Source of the DNA: a virus
Virus record (IMG/VR): IMGVR_UViG_3300044811_000008
Location: 1 to 24,717 of that record
Direction: 5' to 3' (one strand)
Length of the DNA stretch: 24,717 bases
Positions within the stretch are counted from its first letter, which is position 1, and each line of letters starts with the position of its first letter. Positions 4,641 through 24,717 of this stretch are shown one piece after another. Position numbers and translations under genes: made by a program. Under the pieces are notes generated by a model, which was given only the letters and a program-made list of their open reading frames with translations, was not told the DNA's origin and ran no database searches.

Positions 4641-5666
4641 CTACCCGCCCGCGTTCGCGCCGAGCTGCTTGAGCAGCCCCGCAAACGACCGGCCCGCACC
4701 CGTAACCTTGCCCTCCGTGTAACTGCCGCCCTGCGCCCGATTCGCGACCGGCAAATACCCGCCCTGCGGGCCGCCAGCCCACCCCGTCTCGATCGCGCCA
4801 TTGCCGGTCGCGATGACATCCCCGGCCCTGACCGTTTGGCCGACCTTGACATGCGGCGTAACGAGCTCGGAGACATACACGTACTTGCCTGCGTGCGGGC
4901 CATTGGCGAGCTGGTAGACGATGTAGGGCTGGCCCTTGTAGAAGTTGTGGCTGATGTTGACGACCTTCGCGTCACCGATCGCGCGGATCGGGCCCTGGAT
5001 GACGGGGTCGACGCCCTCATCGACTCGGCCGGGGCCCTTGAGAGAGGAGCCGAACGGGTTGACATAGCCGCCAGAGCCGCCGCTTGGCGCGCCTGGGGTG
5101 GTTGTCGTGACCTTCCGGGCAGCCGTGTTCTTCAACCCCGGCAACTGCGTCGCAAGATTCAGCAGGGCGTCGGTGTTGTCCGGTCCGCCCTGCCCAAGGA
5201 ACTGGGAGATCAGGGCGGACCGTTGCGCCGACCGATCCACGCCCGGCACCGTCTTGGTCGATGTCGTCGGACCAGAGGCCGGGGCACCCGCAGCACCGCC
5301 GAGCAAGCCCTGGGCCTGCCCACTAACCGCCTGATAGCGACCCCTGTACTGCGCCGCCGGCCGCTGCACAGCCGCCGCCAACGCGCCAGCCGTCCCGTAC
5401 TTCGCGGCCAAAGCGTCAGCCTCGTTGTAGAACCGGCCGATGCTCGCATTGAGATTCGTCGGGTTCGGATACAGCGACGCACGCTCCTGCCGCCACCCGG
5501 CGCTATCGCCAGTCCCGCCCGACGGGTTGCTCAGGTTCGACTCAACGATGCCGGTCTCGACAGCAGCCTTGACCTTCTTCGGCGACTCCCCGCGGCTGTG
5601 ACCAACCGCCAGTATGCGAGCGAGAATCTGGCGTTGCTGCGGAGTCAAAGTGTTGCCTGAAGCCAT
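4641..5666 (-). CDS. Transglycosylase-like/M23-like virion wall enzyme
   Basis: The protein has 341 residues. The N-terminal part (about 5-95) resembles a phage lysozyme-like domain: QRQILARILAVGHSRGESPK, VETGIVESNLSN with a likely catalytic Glu, and DSAGWRQERASLYPNPTN. A linker rich in Gly, Thr and Pro follows. The C-terminal part (about 205-310) has the peptidase M23 beta-barrel pattern (YVYVSELVTPHVKVGQTVRA, GDVIATGNG), but the HxH and other metal-binding histidines are not seen, so it may only bind or shape. It follows the internal virion genes, suggesting a virion enzyme that opens the wall on entry. Start ATG 5666 is chosen because of the TGATG overlap; the frame extends 4 codons further upstream. 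Confidence 0.7.
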   Translation of the reverse strand: MASGNTLTPQQRQILARILAVGHSRGESPKKVKAAVETGIVESNLSNPSGGTGDSAGWRQERASLYPNPTNLNASIGRFYNEADALAAKYGTAGALAAAVQRPAAQYRGRYQAVSGQAQGLLGGAAGAPASGPTTSTKTVPGVDRSAQRSALISQFLGQGGPDNTDALLNLATQLPGLKNTAARKVTTTTPGAPSGGSGGYVNPFGSSLKGPGRVDEGVDPVIQGPIRAIGDAKVVNISHNFYKGQPYIVYQLANGPHAGKYVYVSELVTPHVKVGQTVRAGDVIATGNGAIETGWAGGPQGGYLPVANRAQGGSYTEGKVTGAGRSFAGLLKQLGANAGG

Positions 5667-8600
5667 CAGCCGCCCCACCCGCTACTCGAAGACTTTGCCG
5701 ACGTGGCCGGACTGCCCCACCCGCTCGATGACGAACTAGATGAACCGCCCCACACGCTGCGGACAGCTTTCTTCTTGCCCGTGGTGTAGAGCGGGACCTT
5801 GTCGCCGCGCTGCCCCGACAGCTTGGTGATCGTCGCCTTAATGTCCTTCTGCTCCAATGCCAGCCGCCGATACTCAGCGGTCGCATTCGCGGCCTTGACG
5901 CCCTGCTGATTCAAAGCGCCCATCTGTGCGGTGACCTGATTGAGCTTCGGATACAGCGCCTCGATCATCGCGCCCGCCGGATCAAGCGGCTGCGCCTTCA
6001 CGCCAGTCAGGCCACCGATGATCTTCGCGACCTCGCCCTGCCCGCGACGGTTCGTGCCCGACGTCGTGAGCTGCTGAAGCAAGTTCGGCAACCCCGGAAT
6101 CGCCTTGGCGAAGTAGTCGCTCTTGCCGTTCCAGCCCCACACCTTGCGGCCGGTCTTCTTGTCGAAGTAGTCAGGGGTGATGCCCAACTTCTTGGCTAGG
6201 CCGCGATCGTTCTTGTAGATCGCGCTCACCCAATCTGGTGCAGCAACCAGTGGCCGCTGCTGGTTTTGGATGTCTGACCGGAAGAAGAAGCTGCGATTGG
6301 CGTACAGCTCGGCGGGGTCCTTGATGATCGGGCTGAGCATCCCGGCCGCGAACTGCGACAACTCGCTGAGGTACGCGCCGGCGTCCGCCTTGGTCGGGAT
6401 CTCGTTGAGCAACGTCAGCGGCAGCGAGTCCGACAGCACCGTCTTGACGCCGCCAAGCTTCAGGATGAACGGCGCCTGCCGGGCCTCATAGCCCTTGAGG
6501 TTGTTCTGGTCCTGCTGGAGGTTCAGGCCGGTCGCGAGCGATGCTTCCTCACGGGCCTTCTCGATGTTCGCGAACTTGCCCGGCTTGGTCACCAGCGCCT
6601 TGGCGTGGATCGGCAGCGCCCGTGCGGAGAACGTGTAGAACGGCGCGACCCTGCGCATCGTGGTCCGCTCGAGCTTCGTCAGGTCGCCATAGTCGATGTG
6701 GGTGTTCAGCGACAGGTCGGCCGCCTCGCTGGGCTTCAGGCCGCTGTCGAGACCGTGCTTGTACGTCGCGAGGCGCATCAGGTCTTCCCGGTTTTGCATC
6801 CACCGGTTCACACGATGGCCGGCCGCGGTGGCCTTGCCGCCGATCCTGGTGGTGCGGCCCATGCCCTTGCCCTGCTCGCGGAGCTCGCGGCCGATGTAGC
6901 CGGAGCGGATGACGCCCTGCTTCTGTGCCTCGGCCAGGAAGTCGTCGACGTTGCGCGGCTTGCCGGCGACCTTGATCGTCGCGTCGGTGAGGGCGACGGG
7001 CCTGAGCGTCTTTGATTCCGTGACCTCAACCTTGTTGAGCCGCCGGACGGCGCGGCCGGCTTGGGCGACGTTGACGGGCATCCGGTGGCCCGGCTGGGCG
7101 AGGTAGCCCATCTGGGCATCGCCGACGAGGTTGCGGGCATGAAACCCCGGGGTCATCGTGGCGATGCGCTTGAACGCGGCCTGGCTGCGATCAAACGCCA
7201 TCCCCGTCGCGGTGCGATCGGTCTGCGGAGCGATGTTCGCGAACTCCCGCTCGACCGTCCGCTTGTCCAAGATCACGTAGCGGCCCGCACCCGTTGACTT
7301 CGGGATCGCACTCCCATCCAGCTGGGTCAACTCACGCTGGCCGCCCACGTCGTGGTAGTGGAAGATTGCCTCTCCATCCTTCAAGGCCACATCGCCATTG
7401 CGGTCAGCGATCACCGGCCGCCCGATATCAGCGAGGCGCTTGGCGAGGTTCTTCGCAGCGACGGCCTTCGCGGTGCCCGCCATGTATTCGCCGTGAACCA
7501 GCGGAAGGTTCGTCGAGAATGCCGACTCCCCGCCAGCAAGCCGCTCAGGATTCTGGACACCGATCGGCCGCAGATCCGTTCGGGACTTCGACGACGACAA
7601 CCGGACCTTTCTGACCCCCTTCGTCTGCGGGGTGATCCCCACGTCATGTAGTGCCTGGCCGGGCTTGACCTCATCGGCGAGGGCGTGCGGGAAGTAGTTG
7701 ACGGCAGCCCCCGGACCGGTCGCCTTAGTGATGTCTCCCTCCGTCACGCCTGCGCGGGCTCGCACCCGTTTCGCCTGCCGCAGCGAGTCGCGCACCTGAC
7801 GGGCCGGCTCCTGAAGATGCGCGGGGAGCGCGCCGAGCTTGTTGGTCTCGACCGCGTTGATGACGTTCTCGTACTGGTCCTTCGGGACCAGCTTCTTCAA
7901 AGCGCGGGCGTGACGTTCGGCCTGGGCCATCCCGACACGCGCCTCCGCACGGGCCTGGCGGCCAACCTGGCGGACAGCGGTGTGCTCGGCCTGAGACTCG
8001 CCCGCCCTGGCGAGCTGGGGGCGCACATCTCCTGCGATGTTGCGGACGCCGGCACCAGCCGTCTTGACCTTGTCGGGTGCTTTGGCAGCGACCTTCTTGG
8101 CAACCCGACCAACGGCGGCGGTGCCTGTCGTGACGCCCGGCACCTGGTGGCCAGCCATCTTGATCGTGATGCCATTGCCGGGCTTGGCGCTGGCAGCAGC
8201 CTTTTTGGCTGCCGCCCTCGCGACGGTTTTGACTCCTGCCTCGCTCATACCCGCGCGCTCAGCCTTGCGGGTCACGCTCAGAGCGGCCTTCTCGGCAGCG
8301 GCACGCTCAACACTCGACGCGCCCCCTGTCACATAGGTCGTCGGGTCAAGCCCCACGTCGAGACCGAACCCGACAGCACCGGCGACGCCCTTCGGCACCC
8401 CGGCCTTGGTCAGCACCTTGCCGAACGTGTAGGGCTTGTTGTGCAGCAGCCCCTCCGTGAAACCGTGCGTGCCTGAGGTTGCGAGCCCGGCGATGGCATG
8501 GATCGGACGTGCGGTCTGGTTGAGGATGCTGAGGACGGGGGCGCCCATCCCTGCGCTCTGCGCCCGGAAGTCCTCGGCGCCCTGCTTATCCGGGCTGGCC

Positions 8601-11578: not shown

Positions 11579-13620
11579 GGAGCACCCTCACTGAGCCCCG
11601 CCTCCATGTAGCCATGCAAAGCCAGCGTCACCTTCTCAACACTCCACGGGGCCGTCCCCGAGATCTGCCAACTGAACGCCCTGGCTTTCACCGCCGTCCT
11701 GTCGCGGGCTTGCGCGACCTGCGGCGCGCTCCCCAACGTCAACGTCCGCCCGGTGGGGAGGCTTGCGGGCTGAACCCACCCGCCCGACAGCGTGTAGCTG
11801 ACCACGCCTGATCCGTCGACCATGCTCTCCCGGACGATCTTCTCGACGCCGTGAATACCACTGCGGAGGTTGCGGCCACGCCAGTCAAACGGAATGAAGC
11901 TCGACCGGTACCGGGCCGTGATCGCGGTCCCCGCATCGGTCGTGTAGGCGTTGGGGGCCCACTGGCCGATGTCGTTGGTGCCCGTCGCGTAGGTGAACAG
12001 CAGTGTTGCGGGCTGCGACAACGTGGCGGCCATCGCGCCCATCGGGATGTCCCACAGCAACCACTGGTTGCCGCGCGGATCGAAGACGAGGGTGTGGTCG
12101 TTCGTGGCCGATGAGCCGAGCGCCAGCCCGATGTAGAGCCGGCCGCTGAACCAGGCCATCGAAGCCTGCGCAAACGCCGACGGATTGACCGTACCACCCT
12201 GAAAGTACGGTGAGACACCACCAACGAACAGGGCGTCGACCGGGTCGCTGACCCGCACGGGCGGCCCGCCGTTGGTGAAGTAGATGCCGCGACGGTCAAG
12301 GAAGTACACGCCATCCGGCGCCACAGCCGTAGCGAGCGGAGCAGCAAGGCCGGCCCCGGTGACCTGCCGGTAGTTGAAGACGGGCAGCCCGGTCGAGTCT
12401 GAGCCGTTGCCATAGAAGACAAAGAACTTCGAGCTCTTGAACACGAACGTCAGGTTGCGCCAGCTCGCGATGCCCTGAATGTCCTCGTTGTCGCCCGGGG
12501 TGAGGTAGGCGTACTGGTTGGCGTTGGCGGCCAGGCCGCCAGATGTCCCGTTCCAGACCTCGGGAAAGCCGGGATCGGAGAACACGACAAGGGAGGTGGA
12601 TGCTGTCGCGCCTGAGCCCGTCGGGATCGTTGCGATGTTCGCTGCGACCAGCCGGTTGTCCGGTGTCTGGAGCCCCACGAATTTCGCTTTGGGCATTCCG
12701 GAGGGTTGGCTGAACGTCGTGCCGACCAGCTTGCGGATCGTTGCGCCGCTGTTCGCGATGTAGGTCGCGTTGACGGTCGGTGATCCGAACGCCGCATAGT
12801 CCGACTGCGTGTCGCTCGCGGTCGCCAACGTCGCGGCGACGGTCCCGTCCGCGGCGATCGCATCGAGCCGTGAGCCCGAGGCGCCCGCAACAAGCGTATT
12901 CCCGGCCGGCGTGTAATAGACAGTGACCTGAATCGAGTCGACGTTGGCTACCACCGTCCCGGCGCCGATGCCTGTAAGCGCCGCGAACTCAACGCCGAAG
13001 GTCGCACCATTGATGTCTGCCGGTGTCCAAGTCGCACCCCACAGATCGCTCGCCGCACCATAGGCAGGGTCCGATGTTCCGATCGGCCAATTCGCCCTCG
13101 ACGACCCCTCGTTACCGGTCAACACGCCCGCCTTCAGAAGACGGACCGAGGAATCAAACACCAACGAATTGGCCGTGTTCCGACGGACGGTCACGGCAAT
13201 GCCGTTGATCGTGGCCGAGGTGGGGATCGCAAACCCGAAACTAGTCGCCTTCAGGTAATGCGAAACAGCGTTTGTAAGTGTCGCGGTGGCATAGTTGCCG
13301 TCGTTCGCTGTGATGTTGCCCGGGTTGGCCCACGCCACCGTGCCGATAGCGGCGTCGTCCGCGCCAGTCCCAGCGAAGTGCGTCACCGAAGAGACGGACG
13401 TCGGTCCGGCCAACGGAAAGATCGAGTCATACCGAGTCGCGCCCGCCGCAGCCGTCACCTTCAGATACCCGTCACGCGACCGCACACGACCAGGACGATC
13501 CAGGTCGACGTTTAGCGCGTCAAGCGCGCCACCGGTTGCGTCAGCTGCACTGCTGAGGTCCAAACCACCGAAGTCGTCGAACGCCACGTTAAATAACGGA
13601 GAAATCAGGCATCCCTCCAC
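11575..13620 (-). CDS. Tail nozzle / stopper-like structural protein
   Basis: The protein has 670-681 residues. The start holds FDDFGGLDLSSAADATGGA and DRPGRVRSRDGY, features of podovirus tail nozzle proteins (T7 gp12-like or P22 gp10-like group). Most of the rest is beta-rich with many Gly, Thr and Asn, consistent with a beta-propeller: SWRNLTFVFKSSKFFVFYGN, DGVYFLDRRGIYFTNGG, DHTLVFDPRGNQWLLWDIP. It would extend the tail below the adaptor. The start is uncertain: GTG 13620 overlaps the HNH gene by 16 bases and lacks a ribosome-binding site, while GTG 13587 also lacks one. The reading between them contains a rare TTA codon. Confidence 0.75.
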   Translation of the reverse strand: MEGCLISPLFNVAFDDFGGLDLSSAADATGGALDALNVDLDRPGRVRSRDGYLKVTAAAGATRYDSIFPLAGPTSVSSVTHFAGTGADDAAIGTVAWANPGNITANDGNYATATLTNAVSHYLKATSFGFAIPTSATINGIAVTVRRNTANSLVFDSSVRLLKAGVLTGNEGSSRANWPIGTSDPAYGAASDLWGATWTPADINGATFGVEFAALTGIGAGTVVANVDSIQVTVYYTPAGNTLVAGASGSRLDAIAADGTVAATLATASDTQSDYAAFGSPTVNATYIANSGATIRKLVGTTFSQPSGMPKAKFVGLQTPDNRLVAANIATIPTGSGATASTSLVVFSDPGFPEVWNGTSGGLAANANQYAYLTPGDNEDIQGIASWRNLTFVFKSSKFFVFYGNGSDSTGLPVFNYRQVTGAGLAAPLATAVAPDGVYFLDRRGIYFTNGGPPVRVSDPVDALFVGGVSPYFQGGTVNPSAFAQASMAWFSGRLYIGLALGSSATNDHTLVFDPRGNQWLLWDIPMGAMAATLSQPATLLFTYATGTNDIGQWAPNAYTTDAGTAITARYRSSFIPFDWRGRNLRSGIHGVEKIVRESMVDGSGVVSYTLSGGWVQPASLPTGRTLTLGSAPQVAQARDRTAVKARAFSWQISGTAPWSVEKVTLALHGYMEAGLSEGAP

Positions 13621-14141
13621 GATTTACCATTGCGGATGGCATAGATGCACTCGCGGGTCACGCCATACCGTTCGCTCAACACCTTGGCATCGTCGTCGCC
13701 GTGCTTGATGAGACGAGCGTCCTCAAGTGTGAGGACCGTGTTCTTGCCACGGCGAATGTTCTCGGTCTGCGTGACCGCTTCCAAGTGGTCCGGGTTGACG
13801 CAGAGGCGGTTGCGGCACAGATGGTCGACCTGAAGTCCGGCCGGCGGCTCGCCATACGCCTGGACGTAGTACCAACGATGGATACCCCACATCTTGCCTG
13901 CGCGGCCAGCCATCCCATAGCCGCCTGAGGTCGCTCGCTGCCACACCCAACACGGCGTTTCGTAGCCGCAGTCCCGTGCGATGTACTCAGGCGTCAGCTT
14001 GCAGTTGTGGCCTTGAACCCACTTGCGTGGCTCGCCCTTATGAAGTCCACGGCTGCGAGTCGTCCGCTTGTTGACGCTGGTCTTCTCGCCGCATCCGCAG
14101 TGGCAGTAGCCGTACGGAACGGTAGATTCCCGATCGCTCAT
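13605..14141 (-). CDS. HNH endonuclease with C-terminal HTH (HNH_3 type)
   Basis: The protein has 178 residues. The N-terminus holds a GYCHCGCGE zinc-like motif and CWVWQRATSGGYG; the nuclease core is GLQVDHLCRNRLCVNPDHLE with Asp106, His107, Asn116 and His119, followed by TQTENIRRG. A C-terminal helix-turn-helix (about 138-175, TLEDARLIKHGDD and SERYGVTRECIYAIRNGKSW) would give site recognition. This is the layout of phage homing nucleases. It interrupts the usual adaptor-nozzle order and has its own AGGAG 8 bases before ATG 14141 and a hairpin upstream. The frame extends to 14243, but that segment is not needed. Confidence 0.88.
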   Translation of the reverse strand: MSDRESTVPYGYCHCGCGEKTSVNKRTTRSRGLHKGEPRKWVQGHNCKLTPEYIARDCGYETPCWVWQRATSGGYGMAGRAGKMWGIHRWYYVQAYGEPPAGLQVDHLCRNRLCVNPDHLEAVTQTENIRRGKNTVLTLEDARLIKHGDDDAKVLSERYGVTRECIYAIRNGKSWRDA

Positions 14142-14164
14142 GAGGCTTGCTCCTCTTGGGCCAT

Positions 14165-14193
14165 GCCCCCGGCGATTCAGGTCGCGCGGGGGC
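14165..14193 (-). terminator. Hairpin between adaptor and HNH genes
   Basis: GCCCCCG (14165-14171) pairs with CGGGGGC (14187-14193) around a 15-base loop. It lies in the 98-bp gap after the adaptor stop and just before the HNH ribosome-binding site. It could be a weak terminator or could shield the HNH message. No T-tract follows. Confidence 0.4.
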
Positions 14194-14239
14194 GCTTGAT
14201 TTGTCCTCTCATTCTCGCAGGCTGAGGGGACGGTGAGGC

Positions 14240-14857
14240 TCACCAGTCGCCACTAGCCCCAGAGATGAACTGGCGGCCACCGCTGCCCTGCGAAAGGATG
14301 TCCCACTCCCGCATCCGCTCCACCACCATGTCACCAGCCTGCTGCGCAACCTGCGCCTCATCCGGCACATTCGATTCCCGAAACGCCAGCATCGCCGCGT
14401 AATCCACGATCGCCATCCGAAACCGGTCAGGCATCAACGGCACATCCGTCGAAGCAACCATGTCCGGACTCACCCTGGTGTACCGGACCGTCAACGTCAC
14501 GCCCGACACCGGAAAGGCATTCACCGTGTTCCCAGCCGTCACGAAATAGAACGCCGGAACGCTGCCCGTCAACGACAGATCCGCATACCTGTTCGTCACA
14601 TCGCGCCGCGACACGAACTCCAACGGATTGAGATTGGTGACATCGGTCACCGTCTCGATCCGGCCAAGATCCGACACCGTCACCGGGGCCGTCCCCGTAG
14701 TCGAAGCCTGGAGGTACTGCCACGACTCTGCGTCATCCACGATGTGCATCGCCGTGTTCAGGAACGTCGTTGCGCGCGTCAGCCCAGCGCCCGACGACAT
14801 GAAGTCGAAACCTCGCGCGAGGAGCAACGTCTGGAGGTCGCTGAGAGCGAGAGCCAT
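14240..14857 (-). CDS. Head-tail adaptor (P22 gp4-like)
   Basis: The protein has 205 residues. The N-terminus (LSDLQTLLLARGFDFMSSGA, then ATTFLNTAMHIVDDAESWQY) and the C-terminal helices (DRFRMAIVDYAAMLAFRE, VAQQAGDMVVERMREW) fit the phage adaptor family that binds the portal ring and joins it to the tail. Between them is a beta insertion (VTVSDLGRIETVTDVTNLN, VSGVTLTVRYTRVSPDMV). Its position after the capsid genes and before the nozzle supports this. The ATG overlaps the upstream TGA (TGATG). Confidence 0.8.
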   Translation of the reverse strand: MALALSDLQTLLLARGFDFMSSGAGLTRATTFLNTAMHIVDDAESWQYLQASTTGTAPVTVSDLGRIETVTDVTNLNPLEFVSRRDVTNRYADLSLTGSVPAFYFVTAGNTVNAFPVSGVTLTVRYTRVSPDMVASTDVPLMPDRFRMAIVDYAAMLAFRESNVPDEAQVAQQAGDMVVERMREWDILSQGSGGRQFISGASGDW

Positions 14858-20619: not shown

Positions 20620-20939
20620 TAGGCGAAGAACCAGCAGTCGATGGTTGCTGCGTTGATGACCCGCAACGCGGCGAGACTGTTGCCGTCATACTTCCATTCC
20701 GCGCTCGCCGCGATCGGGTAACCAACCGTCGCGGTCGGCGCAGTGCCGTCATCCCTGATACGGATCTGGGCAGTCGGCACCAGCAGCACCCGTGTCGCAC
20801 CAGCAGGCAGCACGCCGTTCGTGCACAACGACGCAAGGGTGGCTGCCGCAGTGGTGCTCGTGACCTGCTGATAGCCCTTGCTGTTGCTGTCGCTATCCAC
20901 CCGCAGCGGATTGGCGTCGGTTCCTGGAACGGGACTCAT
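20619..20939 (-). CDS. Conserved small phage protein, beta-sandwich-like
   Basis: The protein has 106 residues. The pattern LPAGATRVLLVPTAQIRIRDDGTAPTATVGYPI, read here as successive strands, followed by EWKYDGNSLAALRVINAA and a short aromatic end, is a form I know from many phages near head genes (RxDDGTxPTAxxGxPL, YDGxxLAALRxI). Its function is not known to me; a head-surface protein is likely. ATG 20939 overlaps the upstream TGA (ATGA). Confidence 0.65.
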   Translation of the reverse strand: MSPVPGTDANPLRVDSDSNSKGYQQVTSTTAAATLASLCTNGVLPAGATRVLLVPTAQIRIRDDGTAPTATVGYPIAASAEWKYDGNSLAALRVINAATIDCWFFA

Positions 20940-21292
20940 GCCGCAACCTCCTTCTTCGGCCGGCCGGTCTTCTTGCGCTCCACAAACCCGCGTGAGGCGA
21001 GGATGTCGATCGCCTCAAACCGGGCCTCCAGATCGTCGCGCTCCGTCGTGATCTTCTCGAGCTCGGCTTGCACAGCCGCGAGTTCGGTCGCAGCCTCGTG
21101 ATATTCGGCGCGGGACGGCAGGCCGATCAGGCGAGCCATCTCCTTGACCGCCTTGACACTCACGTAGACGTGGTTGTCAAAGCCGTCCATCTCTGACCCG
21201 GTATCGATGTAGCCGAGCTCGTCATGGCCGCTGATGAACGGGATGACGGCGCAACGGTGCGGCCGGATCGCCGCGACCTCGACCCACCTCAC
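20936..21292 (-). CDS. Small coiled-coil protein, unknown
   Basis: The protein has 118 residues. The first half holds IPFISGHDELGYIDTGSEMD and DNHVYVSVKAVKEMARLIGL; the second has a predicted coiled coil (YHEAATELAAVQAELEKITT, DDLEARFEAIDILAS) and ends in a basic KKTGRPKKEVAA, which could touch nucleic acid. The start is GTG 21292 in a GTGA overlap, with GGAGG 4 bases upstream. The frame is open to 21403, but that part lies inside the upstream gene. Confidence 0.6.
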   Translation of the reverse strand: MRWVEVAAIRPHRCAVIPFISGHDELGYIDTGSEMDGFDNHVYVSVKAVKEMARLIGLPSRAEYHEAATELAAVQAELEKITTERDDLEARFEAIDILASRGFVERKKTGRPKKEVAA

Positions 21293-21820: not shown

Positions 21821-23335
21821 CTATGACATTGCCCCCATGGGGGGCGCCTCAGGTTCGCGACGCAACCACTCAGCAGGCGGCGCCATATTTAGGGCCGGGT
21901 CCCACCCAAGGTTGCGGGCGGGCGCCTCAAGCTCGGCAACATGGTCGTAGGGCCGGTACATCGCCAGATAGCGGAGGGCGTCGAGGCGATGGTCGTTCTG
22001 TTTGATCGGCTTGAACTCGCCGTCAGCGCGGTCCTCGGCGGCGTACTCGTCGGCCTCGTCGCGCAGACCGCGGCAGTCCTCGCTGATCCAGATGCGCTTG
22101 TGTTGAATCCTTGACCGGATCTGCTGGATGCCGGCCTCCACGTTGTTCTGGCCGTGCTCGCAATAGATCCCCAACCGGGCGAGGGCTCCCTCGACGGTCT
22201 CGGCATTGACAGCCGCCCGAGCCCTGGCGGCCGGGTCGATCACGAACGACACCTTGGCCTGCCCGACACCCCACTGCTTCAAGACACCAGCGATCTGCTT
22301 GGCGTAGTCATCCGGGGTGCCGTCCTGGATCAGCAGCTCGTCAAAGACGCTAAGCGTGTTGTCTGAGTCGAAGCCGCCGAAGACCAGGCCCGCGTTGCGG
22401 ATGCCCGGGTCGATTGACACGACGACATCCAGGCCCCGGACCGTCTCACCGCTCGGCGCCGGTACAACCCTGCGTTCGAAGTCGGTGTAGATCAGGCCGC
22501 CAACATCAACGAAGTCACCGAACTCGCGGGCCCGTCGCCACAAATCAGACGAGAGCGCGCCGAGAAAGCGTTCCTTGGCTGCCTCATCCAGCGTCGGGTT
22601 GTCATGAATCGAGCCCTTGATAACCGTGATGTCCGGGTGCTCACGCTTCTTGAAGATCTCGCGCCTGATCCAGCCCGTATTGGCCTTCAATGGCGTCATC
22701 GCGAACAGCTCATACCCCCCGAAATCCACCAGGCGGCCAAGGCACTCCTCCCTGATCTCAAGCGGCGGCGGCTCATCAAAGCCGACGACGTGGCCCTTCC
22801 AGCCACCGAACTTCGCAAGGTCCTGCTCATAGGTCATGAACTGAATCGACGACCCGTTCTTGAAATCCAGCCGGCGGTCCGGGGCGCCCTTGATCGCCTT
22901 ATCAAACGACCCGCCCCTCAACTGTGCTGGCGGGCACCACTGACGGAACGCCGGCAGAATCACGCTCTCGAGCAGCTGGAATGACGGGTTGACGATCCGG
23001 CACTGCGTGCCCCGAGGGGCAGTGTCCGCATCCCACCGCTTGAACGGCAGCAGCCACGGCGGCAGGCACTCCCGATCACAACACTCGATCAACAACCTGA
23101 CGGCTAGCGCCGTCGTCTTGCCAAACCGGTTGCCCGCGAACGCCGCCACCACCGGGGTACGGGCCTCAAAGAACGGGGCCTGCGCCACGTGCGGCTCAAA
23201 CGCCTGCAACGGATTGCCCTCAAGCAGCTCGTCAAGCGCCGCGAGCTCCCGCGCAAAATCCTTGTCATCAGCAAGCGCAGGATCAGCCCGCACCAACGCC
23301 CGCAGCCCAGCCACCCGCTCGCTGATCGTCGGCAC
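21821..23335 (-). CDS. terL: Terminase large subunit
   Basis: The protein has 504 residues. The ATPase half has a Walker A motif AGNRFGKT (67-74), a Walker B VVGFDEP (183-189) and a coupling motif FAMTPLK (211-217). The nuclease half has an RNase H-like fold with Asp309 (VSIDPGIRNAG), Asp367 (SFVIDPAARA) and Asp448/Asp452 (NDHRLDALRY). It is the motor that cuts and packs phage DNA through the portal. The start is GTG 23335 with AGGGG 6 bases upstream; it follows the small zinc/RHH protein by 29 bases. The sequence alone does not show whether packaging is by cos or headful. Confidence 0.92.
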   Translation of the reverse strand: MPTISERVAGLRALVRADPALADDKDFARELAALDELLEGNPLQAFEPHVAQAPFFEARTPVVAAFAGNRFGKTTALAVRLLIECCDRECLPPWLLPFKRWDADTAPRGTQCRIVNPSFQLLESVILPAFRQWCPPAQLRGGSFDKAIKGAPDRRLDFKNGSSIQFMTYEQDLAKFGGWKGHVVGFDEPPPLEIREECLGRLVDFGGYELFAMTPLKANTGWIRREIFKKREHPDITVIKGSIHDNPTLDEAAKERFLGALSSDLWRRAREFGDFVDVGGLIYTDFERRVVPAPSGETVRGLDVVVSIDPGIRNAGLVFGGFDSDNTLSVFDELLIQDGTPDDYAKQIAGVLKQWGVGQAKVSFVIDPAARARAAVNAETVEGALARLGIYCEHGQNNVEAGIQQIRSRIQHKRIWISEDCRGLRDEADEYAAEDRADGEFKPIKQNDHRLDALRYLAMYRPYDHVAELEAPARNLGWDPALNMAPPAEWLRREPEAPPMGAMS

Positions 23336-23364: not shown

Positions 23365-23688
23365 CTACAACGTGCCAGTACCCCCACAGCCCGGGCACTG
23401 CCCGATGCCGCGAAGCTGGCCCGACCCATTGCACTTCGGACAGGAACGCACAAGAGAAGGGGTCAGCCCAACACGCCGACAGGAAGCAGAAGCGGCTGGC
23501 GACCAGGTTGTTTCGCCGCCACTTACGCGGGGTTTTTCGTGATCCTGACCCGACCGCTGCTCGACGCCCAACGTCTTCTCCAACGCCCGCTCAACCCACC
23601 GAGACCACGACACATCGCCGCGCTCTACGTCGATGGCATCCGCAAGCTCTTGGCTCAGCCTGATCGACCTGCGGACCTCTTTGCTCAC
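23365..23688 (-). CDS. Ribbon-helix-helix plus zinc-motif protein, candidate small terminase
   Basis: The protein has 107 residues. The N-terminus (about 4-42, VRRSIRLSQELADAIDVE then VSWSRWVERALEKTLG) has the strand-helix-helix pattern of ribbon-helix-helix DNA-binding proteins. The C-terminus has CPKCNGSG (83-89) and CPGCGGTG (98-105), the CXXCXGXG type seen in DnaJ zinc fingers. The middle (about 45-78) looks disordered. It lies directly before the large terminase, the usual place of a small terminase, but lacks the usual HTH fold; a transcription regulator is the alternative. The start is GTG 23688 in a GTGA overlap; the longer frame to 23871 lies inside the HNH gene. Confidence 0.6.
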   Translation of the reverse strand: MSKEVRRSIRLSQELADAIDVERGDVSWSRWVERALEKTLGVEQRSGQDHEKPRVSGGETTWSPAASASCRRVGLTPSLVRSCPKCNGSGQLRGIGQCPGCGGTGTL

Positions 23689-24446
23689 GCCGCGAACGCT
23701 AACTGATCGACACGAGCGCCCTTCAACGAATTGCAGATGAAATGAGCGGTCTGCACATTCGCATACGCATGCGCCCCGCCAAGCGCCAACGGCAAGATGT
23801 GATCCAGCGTCGCCGCCAAAGGATCGGGAACCACCGCCTCGCGGACGATCGGCTTCCCGCACAACCGACACGTCCAGCCATCCCGAGCGAAGACCCGCGC
23901 CCGATACACGCGCTCCCCACCATCAGCCCTACGGCGATCATCACGCAACCGCCGTCCCGCACGCTTGCCGCAGAGCGCCGAGCAATAGCGGTCACCCTTC
24001 CCCGACACGACCACGAACGGCGCGCCGCAAGCCGCACACTCGCCGGCGACGAACAGCCGAACCAAGGGGCGAACCGTCAACCGACAAGCAGGCCCACCGC
24101 GAGTCACGAACCGAAAGACCTTCCGAGGCGGCGACCTCACCGGACGGCAGGCATCACACAGCACGCGCTGGCCGACGCCCGGCTCGAAGATGCCGCCGCA
24201 CCCCAGGCAGGACTTCCGACGAGGGCAGCCGCCTCGGCAATGCCTCTGGTGAGCCCGTACCGGAACGAACGGATCTCCGCAACGCTCACACACCCGCGAG
24301 GGAAGCGGGACAAAGACGCTCCGTCGCCGCAAGTACGCCTGCCGGGCCGAATACCGAGACGAGCACAACTGCGAGCAACACCGCGCGTCGACACGCCCAG
24401 GAACAAACCAGTCCCCACAGCGCAAGCAATTCCGCGGCTCCAACAC
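23685..24446 (-). CDS. HNH endonuclease with four N-terminal zinc-finger repeats
   Basis: The protein has 253 residues. Four Cys4 units come first: C7-C10/C24-C28, C53-C56/C70-C74, C80-C83/C97-C100 and C137-C140/C155-C159, each shaped CxxCGxxF..C..C. The HNH domain follows: WTCRLCGKPI (Cys193/Cys196), TLDHILPLALGG (Asp215-His216), AYANVQTAHFICNSLKG (Asn230, His235, Cys238). Adjacent to the terminase, it may assist DNA cleavage at packaging, as HNH partners do in HK97-type phages; a homing role is possible. The start is GTG 24446. Four fingers plus HNH is an unusual layout. Confidence 0.85.
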   Translation of the reverse strand: MLEPRNCLRCGDWFVPGRVDARCCSQLCSSRYSARQAYLRRRSVFVPLPSRVCERCGDPFVPVRAHQRHCRGGCPRRKSCLGCGGIFEPGVGQRVLCDACRPVRSPPRKVFRFVTRGGPACRLTVRPLVRLFVAGECAACGAPFVVVSGKGDRYCSALCGKRAGRRLRDDRRRADGGERVYRARVFARDGWTCRLCGKPIVREAVVPDPLAATLDHILPLALGGAHAYANVQTAHFICNSLKGARVDQLAFAA

Positions 24447-24717
24447 AACATCAGTATGTCAGACAAGTAAGACAAGTCCGTTTGCTGAACGAACCTGACG
24501 GACGCTCCCGAATCAGTAGACGCGATCGGTGAGGTTTGCCTACTCCCCCCGCCCCGTGGCGTGTCCATGTGCCCGTGCACCGGCTTGCTGGGAGGGCTTG
24601 TGGGATGCAACCGTGGGCAGCAACACACTGTGTGCGCCCGTGCCTGTTGAGGTTTGTGCGTGCCGGCATGGCACCACTCACCACTTGAGCTGGTCACACG
24701 GGAGCGCGTTAGGACTG
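24447..24717. other. Non-coding right end, possible packaging or control region
   Basis: No convincing gene is seen in the last 271 bases. The stretch just upstream of the HNH gene holds a direct repeat AGACAAGT (24461-24468 and 24470-24477, 9-base period). Further right are a C-run at 24545-24550, two copies of GCCCGTGC (24571-24578 and 24636-24643), CACACTGTGTG near 24625-24635 and GTGCC-GGCAT-GGCAC (24660-24674). Repeats and dyads next to the terminase genes would suit a cos/pac site or a late-promoter region, but no defined site can be named. Confidence 0.3.

Follow-up and report, generated by a model that had tools for sequence, protein, structure and literature searches.

Which kind of protein is encoded in the small-terminase slot of this phage, directly upstream of the large terminase gene (TerL), and does it package DNA or regulate the genes that do? 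The first-pass annotation had left two options, a new kind of small terminase (TerS) or a late regulator. The window analyzed here is the whole IMG/VR record of 24,717 nucleotides, a contig classed as linear and probably incomplete. At its right end the minus strand carries, in this order, an HNH endonuclease gene with zinc ribbons (23685-24446; Pfam HNH, E = 2.1e-10; phrog_1271, E = 1.4e-33), the gene in question (23365-23688), TerL (21821-23335; Pfam Terminase_6N, E = 1.3e-5; PHROG TerL phrog_2, E = 4.8e-23), and the structural genes, including those of the portal protein (19887-17881) and the major head protein (17073-15817). The HNH gene, the first of the operon, is preceded by an intergenic region of 271 nt (24447-24717) which ends with the record. 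The gene in question reads from a GTG start at 23688 to a stop at 23365 and encodes 107 amino acids; its start overlaps the HNH stop by 4 nt (GTGA), an arrangement by which translation of the two genes may be coupled, and its own stop lies 29 nt from the TerL start. It is a real gene, because its frame has the top codon score among the six frames of this stretch, the GC contents of the three codon positions in its N-terminal part (0.64/0.44/0.82) resemble those of TerL, and this part has been kept upstream of TerL in a related record, L001 (42% over 36 aa). Further downstream, behind TerL, an unannotated late gene (20936-21211, minus strand) codes for a coiled-coil-like stretch with an RPKK tail; its product matches that of L001 3054-3410 and, by eye, resembles proteins encoded downstream of TerL in the phages Jasmine, Shocker, and DS1 (PFVDTG...VYVS...MARLIG).

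Residues 1-45 (23554-23688, minus strand) are assigned to a ribbon-helix-helix (RHH) DNA-binding domain on the basis of a β-α-α profile match and of the predicted helices. Single-sequence searches against Pfam and PHROG did not name this domain. A profile of four members, the window protein and three relatives, aligned by hhalign with a reference profile built from Arc, CopG, NikR, and FitA with 94.9% probability and a score of 36.3; ten column-shuffled profiles reached at most 0.6% and a score of 10.6, and a helix-turn-helix (HTH) control profile gave 0.9%. The best PDB matches of the RHH profile were Arc structures, in register, with E values of 0.09-0.3 that are not significant alone. AlphaFold2 placed two confident helices, residues 13-23 and 28-39, at the positions expected for an RHH fold; the model is confident for about residues 1-40 only, the linker and the tail are without prediction, and residues 60-107 have pLDDT values under 50, the alignment being shallow. 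Foldseek returned no match for the RHH model, and the one chain obtained in a second look at the fold, 2k5j (yiiF), was discarded as too poor for use (Z 3.2, rmsd 11.5).

The protein has a C-terminal tail, CPKCNGSGQLRGIGQCPGCGGTG, in which two CXXCXGXG motifs stand literally in the sequence (CPKCNGSG ... CPGCGGTG, residues 83-105; 23374-23442, minus strand), forming a putative single zinc site. Its best match is anti-TRAP (Pfam, E = 0.0012; PDB, E = 0.0065), with DnaJ also close; at 19.3 bits against a Pfam cut-off of 32, the tail lies below the level of anti-TRAP membership. In anti-TRAP, these motifs bind zinc, which is essential for oligomer formation (PMC2896485). The tail of the window protein probably binds one zinc ion and acts as a knob for oligomerization or for binding a partner. 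The pairing pointed out in the first-pass annotation, an RHH part and a DnaJ-like zinc motif next to TerL, is borne out by the profile alignment, the literal motifs, and the short distance to TerL. The protein with this combination had no convincing relative among 50,697 phage records, a direct search of IMG/VR with the whole protein gave no relatives, and tblastn with the zinc tail alone yielded one irrelevant match.

After these direct protein searches had given none, relatives were obtained through TerL. The TerL proteins of L001, L004, L005, and L020 are 54%, 53%, 51%, and 58% identical to that of the window, and a wider TerL profile added L059 and others; a scan of genome contigs gave two distant TerL relatives only. 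Four members, namely the window, L001 (1091-1351), L004 (103-432), and L005 (670-1059), have an RHH gene upstream of TerL, directly so in L004 and L005 and with a small ORF (1376-1564) between it and TerL in L001. The RHH profile found no match in the records of L020, L021, L023, and L025, and the upstream ORFs of L059 showed no RHH gene either. What the RHH proteins have in common is the RHH part only, whereas the tail, including any zinc module, differs: those of L001 and L004 are without a cysteine motif, and that of L005 has another one (CPKN...CVHCGRPG). Because the relatives carry another zinc module or none, the CXXCXGXG tail is best regarded as accessory. The C-terminal part of the L005 protein resembles the product of the small L001 ORF (49% over 39 aa), a similarity we read as the fusion or splitting of a gene at this position. 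Furthermore, RHH-bearing and RHH-less rows are interspersed in the TerL tree, several forks of which are poorly supported; these mixed rows point to gain or loss of the RHH gene within the group.

The position of the gene directly upstream of TerL and its DNA-binding fold are what made a new kind of small terminase attractive, one in which the packaging site would be recognized by the RHH part and the ring assembled, or TerL bound, by the zinc tail. The relatives argue otherwise. In L001, L020, and L059, related proteins (27-34% identity) are encoded upstream of TerL by genes at 79-582, 4797-5273, and 5074-5667, respectively, the first ending 509 nt before the RHH gene and the others 617 and 259 nt before the next operon or TerL. 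AlphaFold2 gave the L020 protein an N-terminal helical domain (helices within residues 5-51, pLDDT about 85-94) and, behind it, a long hairpin of helices (53-88, 97-116), as one would expect for a small terminase with its HTH-like domain and oligomerization region (cf. PMC11331095). We call these proteins TerS-like, a label that rests on architecture and synteny, with family matches that are not significant (TerS PHROGs, E = 0.16-0.2). Fold searches with the L020 model gave no significant match; among the weak ones are HTH regulators as well as BFVD entries of the phBC6A51 type and of small terminases. In Shocker, a more distant actinophage relative, an HTH protein encoded upstream of TerL does match TerS significantly (phrog_24579, E = 9.8e-6; phrog_2538, E = 3.6e-4), and phrog_33113 is common to Shocker, Jasmine, DS1, and L032. 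Kinship between the TerS-like group of L001, L020, and L059 and the group of Jasmine, Shocker, DS1, L032, and L033 was considered and is not supported (hhalign, only 0.2%).

L001 possesses both the TerS-like gene and the RHH gene, a strong argument against the RHH protein as a replacement for TerS, and in L020 and L059 the TerS-like gene occurs with no RHH gene found. Neither Pfam nor PHROG listed a TerS family among the matches of the RHH/zinc protein up to E = 1. Phage TerS proteins have an HTH fold and the window protein an RHH one; in the latter no helix is predicted besides the two of the RHH domain, nor a central helical region such as assembles the 8-12-mer ring of small terminases, the low pLDDT of residues 60-107 and the shallow alignment applying here as well. 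The tail, moreover, is not conserved. No small terminase was seen among the window proteins scanned, in agreement with the first-pass annotation, an absence which speaks for a terminase role but carries little weight because the record is linear and probably incomplete. A search for a TerS gene truncated by the end of the window found none, and positions 24447-24717 showed no coding signal and no match to a TerS-like profile. Since only 271 nt are left, against a spacing of 259-617 nt in the relatives, the TerS gene of this phage would be expected as a separate gene shortly past the right-hand end of the window. A classical small terminase further upstream, which the first-pass annotation had named as evidence against its terminase reading, was seen in the relatives, within the meaning of the label given above, while the record of this phage ends before that position. 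Taken together, the RHH/zinc protein is probably not the small terminase, and we consider a new kind of TerS highly improbable.

The regulator suggested as the other option fits best, in view of the RHH profile match and of repeats that precede, in three relatives, the RHH gene or its operon. The clearest case is L004 with its GAGCTATAC array, where GCTATAC stands five times, in both orientations, at 22-93, ahead of the RHH start at 103; the exact unit occurs nowhere else in 7.7 kb. In L005, all three copies of CCGTATACA present in 8.6 kb fall at 373-433, and a perfect inverted repeat of 14 nt is among them; behind the repeats follows a short operon with an ORF (449-661) and then the RHH gene at 670. 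The 9 kb read of L001 contains three copies of GKTGATATC, all of them around the RHH start (1063-1102). The best unit counts in L004 (k 7-9), L005 (k 9), and L001 (k 7, GATATCA) were not reached in any of 300 shuffles; with overlapping palindromes entered only once, the array of L004 is still clearly distinct from the rest of its contig and those of L001 and L005 are less exceptional. No dense array was found upstream of TerL in the RHH-less L020 and L059. The layout in L004, L005, and L001 is that expected for an autoregulated RHH operator with candidate sites, clear in the first and fair in the other two. The repeat sequences differ from phage to phage, as expected if protein and operator evolved jointly. 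On the other hand, no sigma-70 promoter was recognized in these upstream regions, the L005 repeat resembles a terminator when the other strand is read, and for three of the upstream regions the folding is better than that of most shuffles, so that the repeats could instead be RNA hairpins.

The repeats also bear on a packaging accessory beside a conventional TerS, in which RHH dimers on the repeats would label the phage DNA close to TerL and bring in the terminase as a second layer of sequence-specific recognition, in this phage by way of the zinc tail. The compact array of L004 and, in L001, the location of repeats and RHH gene within the interval between TerS and TerL would suit such a role, but the protein would be dispensable in L020 and L059, where no RHH gene was found, and the arrays lie at the expected promoter sites with sequences that change freely between relatives, as operators do; we hold this role to be very unlikely.

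In the window itself the signal is weak. A candidate operator at 24457-24477 (minus strand), just before the HNH gene, consists of two copies of ACTTGTCT (24470-24477 and 24461-24468), 9 nt apart and found only here in the window, and of the palindrome TGTCTGACA; 28 of 300 shuffles do equally well. This weakness, together with the variation of the tail among relatives, as if partners vary, would be in keeping with an RHH regulator of other promoters, of early or host genes, for which the TerL neighborhood sets only the timing and the tail binds another protein. Within the 7.7-9 kb read in the three relatives, however, the exact unit occurs only before the RHH gene or its operon, and control of other promoters is a rather unlikely alternative to the autoregulation proposed here. 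The HNH gene may be a mobile, homing-type insertion between promoter and RHH gene, which would account for a candidate operator ahead of it. No HNH gene was seen between the intergenic region and TerL in the five close relatives, and a second one is located among the structural genes of the window (13605-14243, minus strand; phrog_826, E = 5e-28), so that the phage has at least two. A role in packaging similar to that of gp74 of HK97 (PMC11331095) is conceivable for the HNH protein of the window.

A G-rich element (e.g., CACGGGGCGGGGGGAG) was observed between genes, ahead of TerL or its operon, in five relatives (window 24543-24558, minus strand; L001 971-985; L020 5805-5820; L059 5834-5853; L005 287-306). 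The pairwise scores window-L001, window-L020, and L001-L020 equal or exceed those of nearly all shuffles, but in the window and L001 the element is not the most G-rich stretch. A packaging site and a regulatory element are both conceivable, the comparison being no more than suggestive of a conserved packaging site. In Arthrobacter phage Jasmine, each end of the genome has an annotated Lsr2-like gene (L046 373-927, L055 1267-1821), and the two copies may represent a terminal repeat.

From the RHH profile match, the position of the gene, the repeats, the separate TerS-like gene, and the precedent of plasmid pSM19035, we conclude that the window protein is probably an Arc-like RHH autoregulator of the packaging operon. 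It would be a transcription factor of the Arc/CopG type, encoded within the operon of HNH, RHH, and TerL genes. Each DNA-binding ribbon would be made up of two chains, and neighboring dimers would occupy short repeats in the operon promoter, thereby restricting transcription of the packaging genes, their own included, or setting its timing, with the zinc tail as an accessory and the small terminase as a separate gene. DNA binding and repression, as well as the step from repeats to regulation, we infer from sequence.

Among known systems, the Arc repressor of phage P22 and the MetJ/Arc/CopG superfamily share with the window protein the RHH domain, the very short N-terminal lead, and the small size, and an RWPxE stretch is common to L001, L004, and Arc. 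Arc, however, belongs to an immunity region and lacks the C-terminal CXXCXGXG tail, whereas the window protein is encoded in a packaging operon. In plasmid pSM19035, the RHH protein ParB/Omega controls the expression of its operons through 7-bp direct and inverted repeats overlapping the promoters (PMC9499535); here, there are fewer repeats, which are set apart from one another and vary from phage to phage, and no ParA partner is seen for the window protein. With anti-TRAP, the assembly of which needs zinc, and with the cysteine-rich domain of DnaJ, the likeness lies in the two CXXCXGXG motifs, yet the tail is fused behind an RHH domain and has no TRAP context. With phage TerS the window protein shares the place of a DNA-binding protein gene upstream of TerL, its own binding being predicted.

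A gene in the small-terminase slot can therefore pass wrongly for that of a packaging protein. In this phage group, an Arc-like regulator would be encoded upstream of TerL in four members, with a TerS candidate further upstream. In the literature searched, no description was found of an RHH switch dedicated to packaging genes and acting on fast-changing operators; if autoregulation holds true, these phages would possess such a switch.
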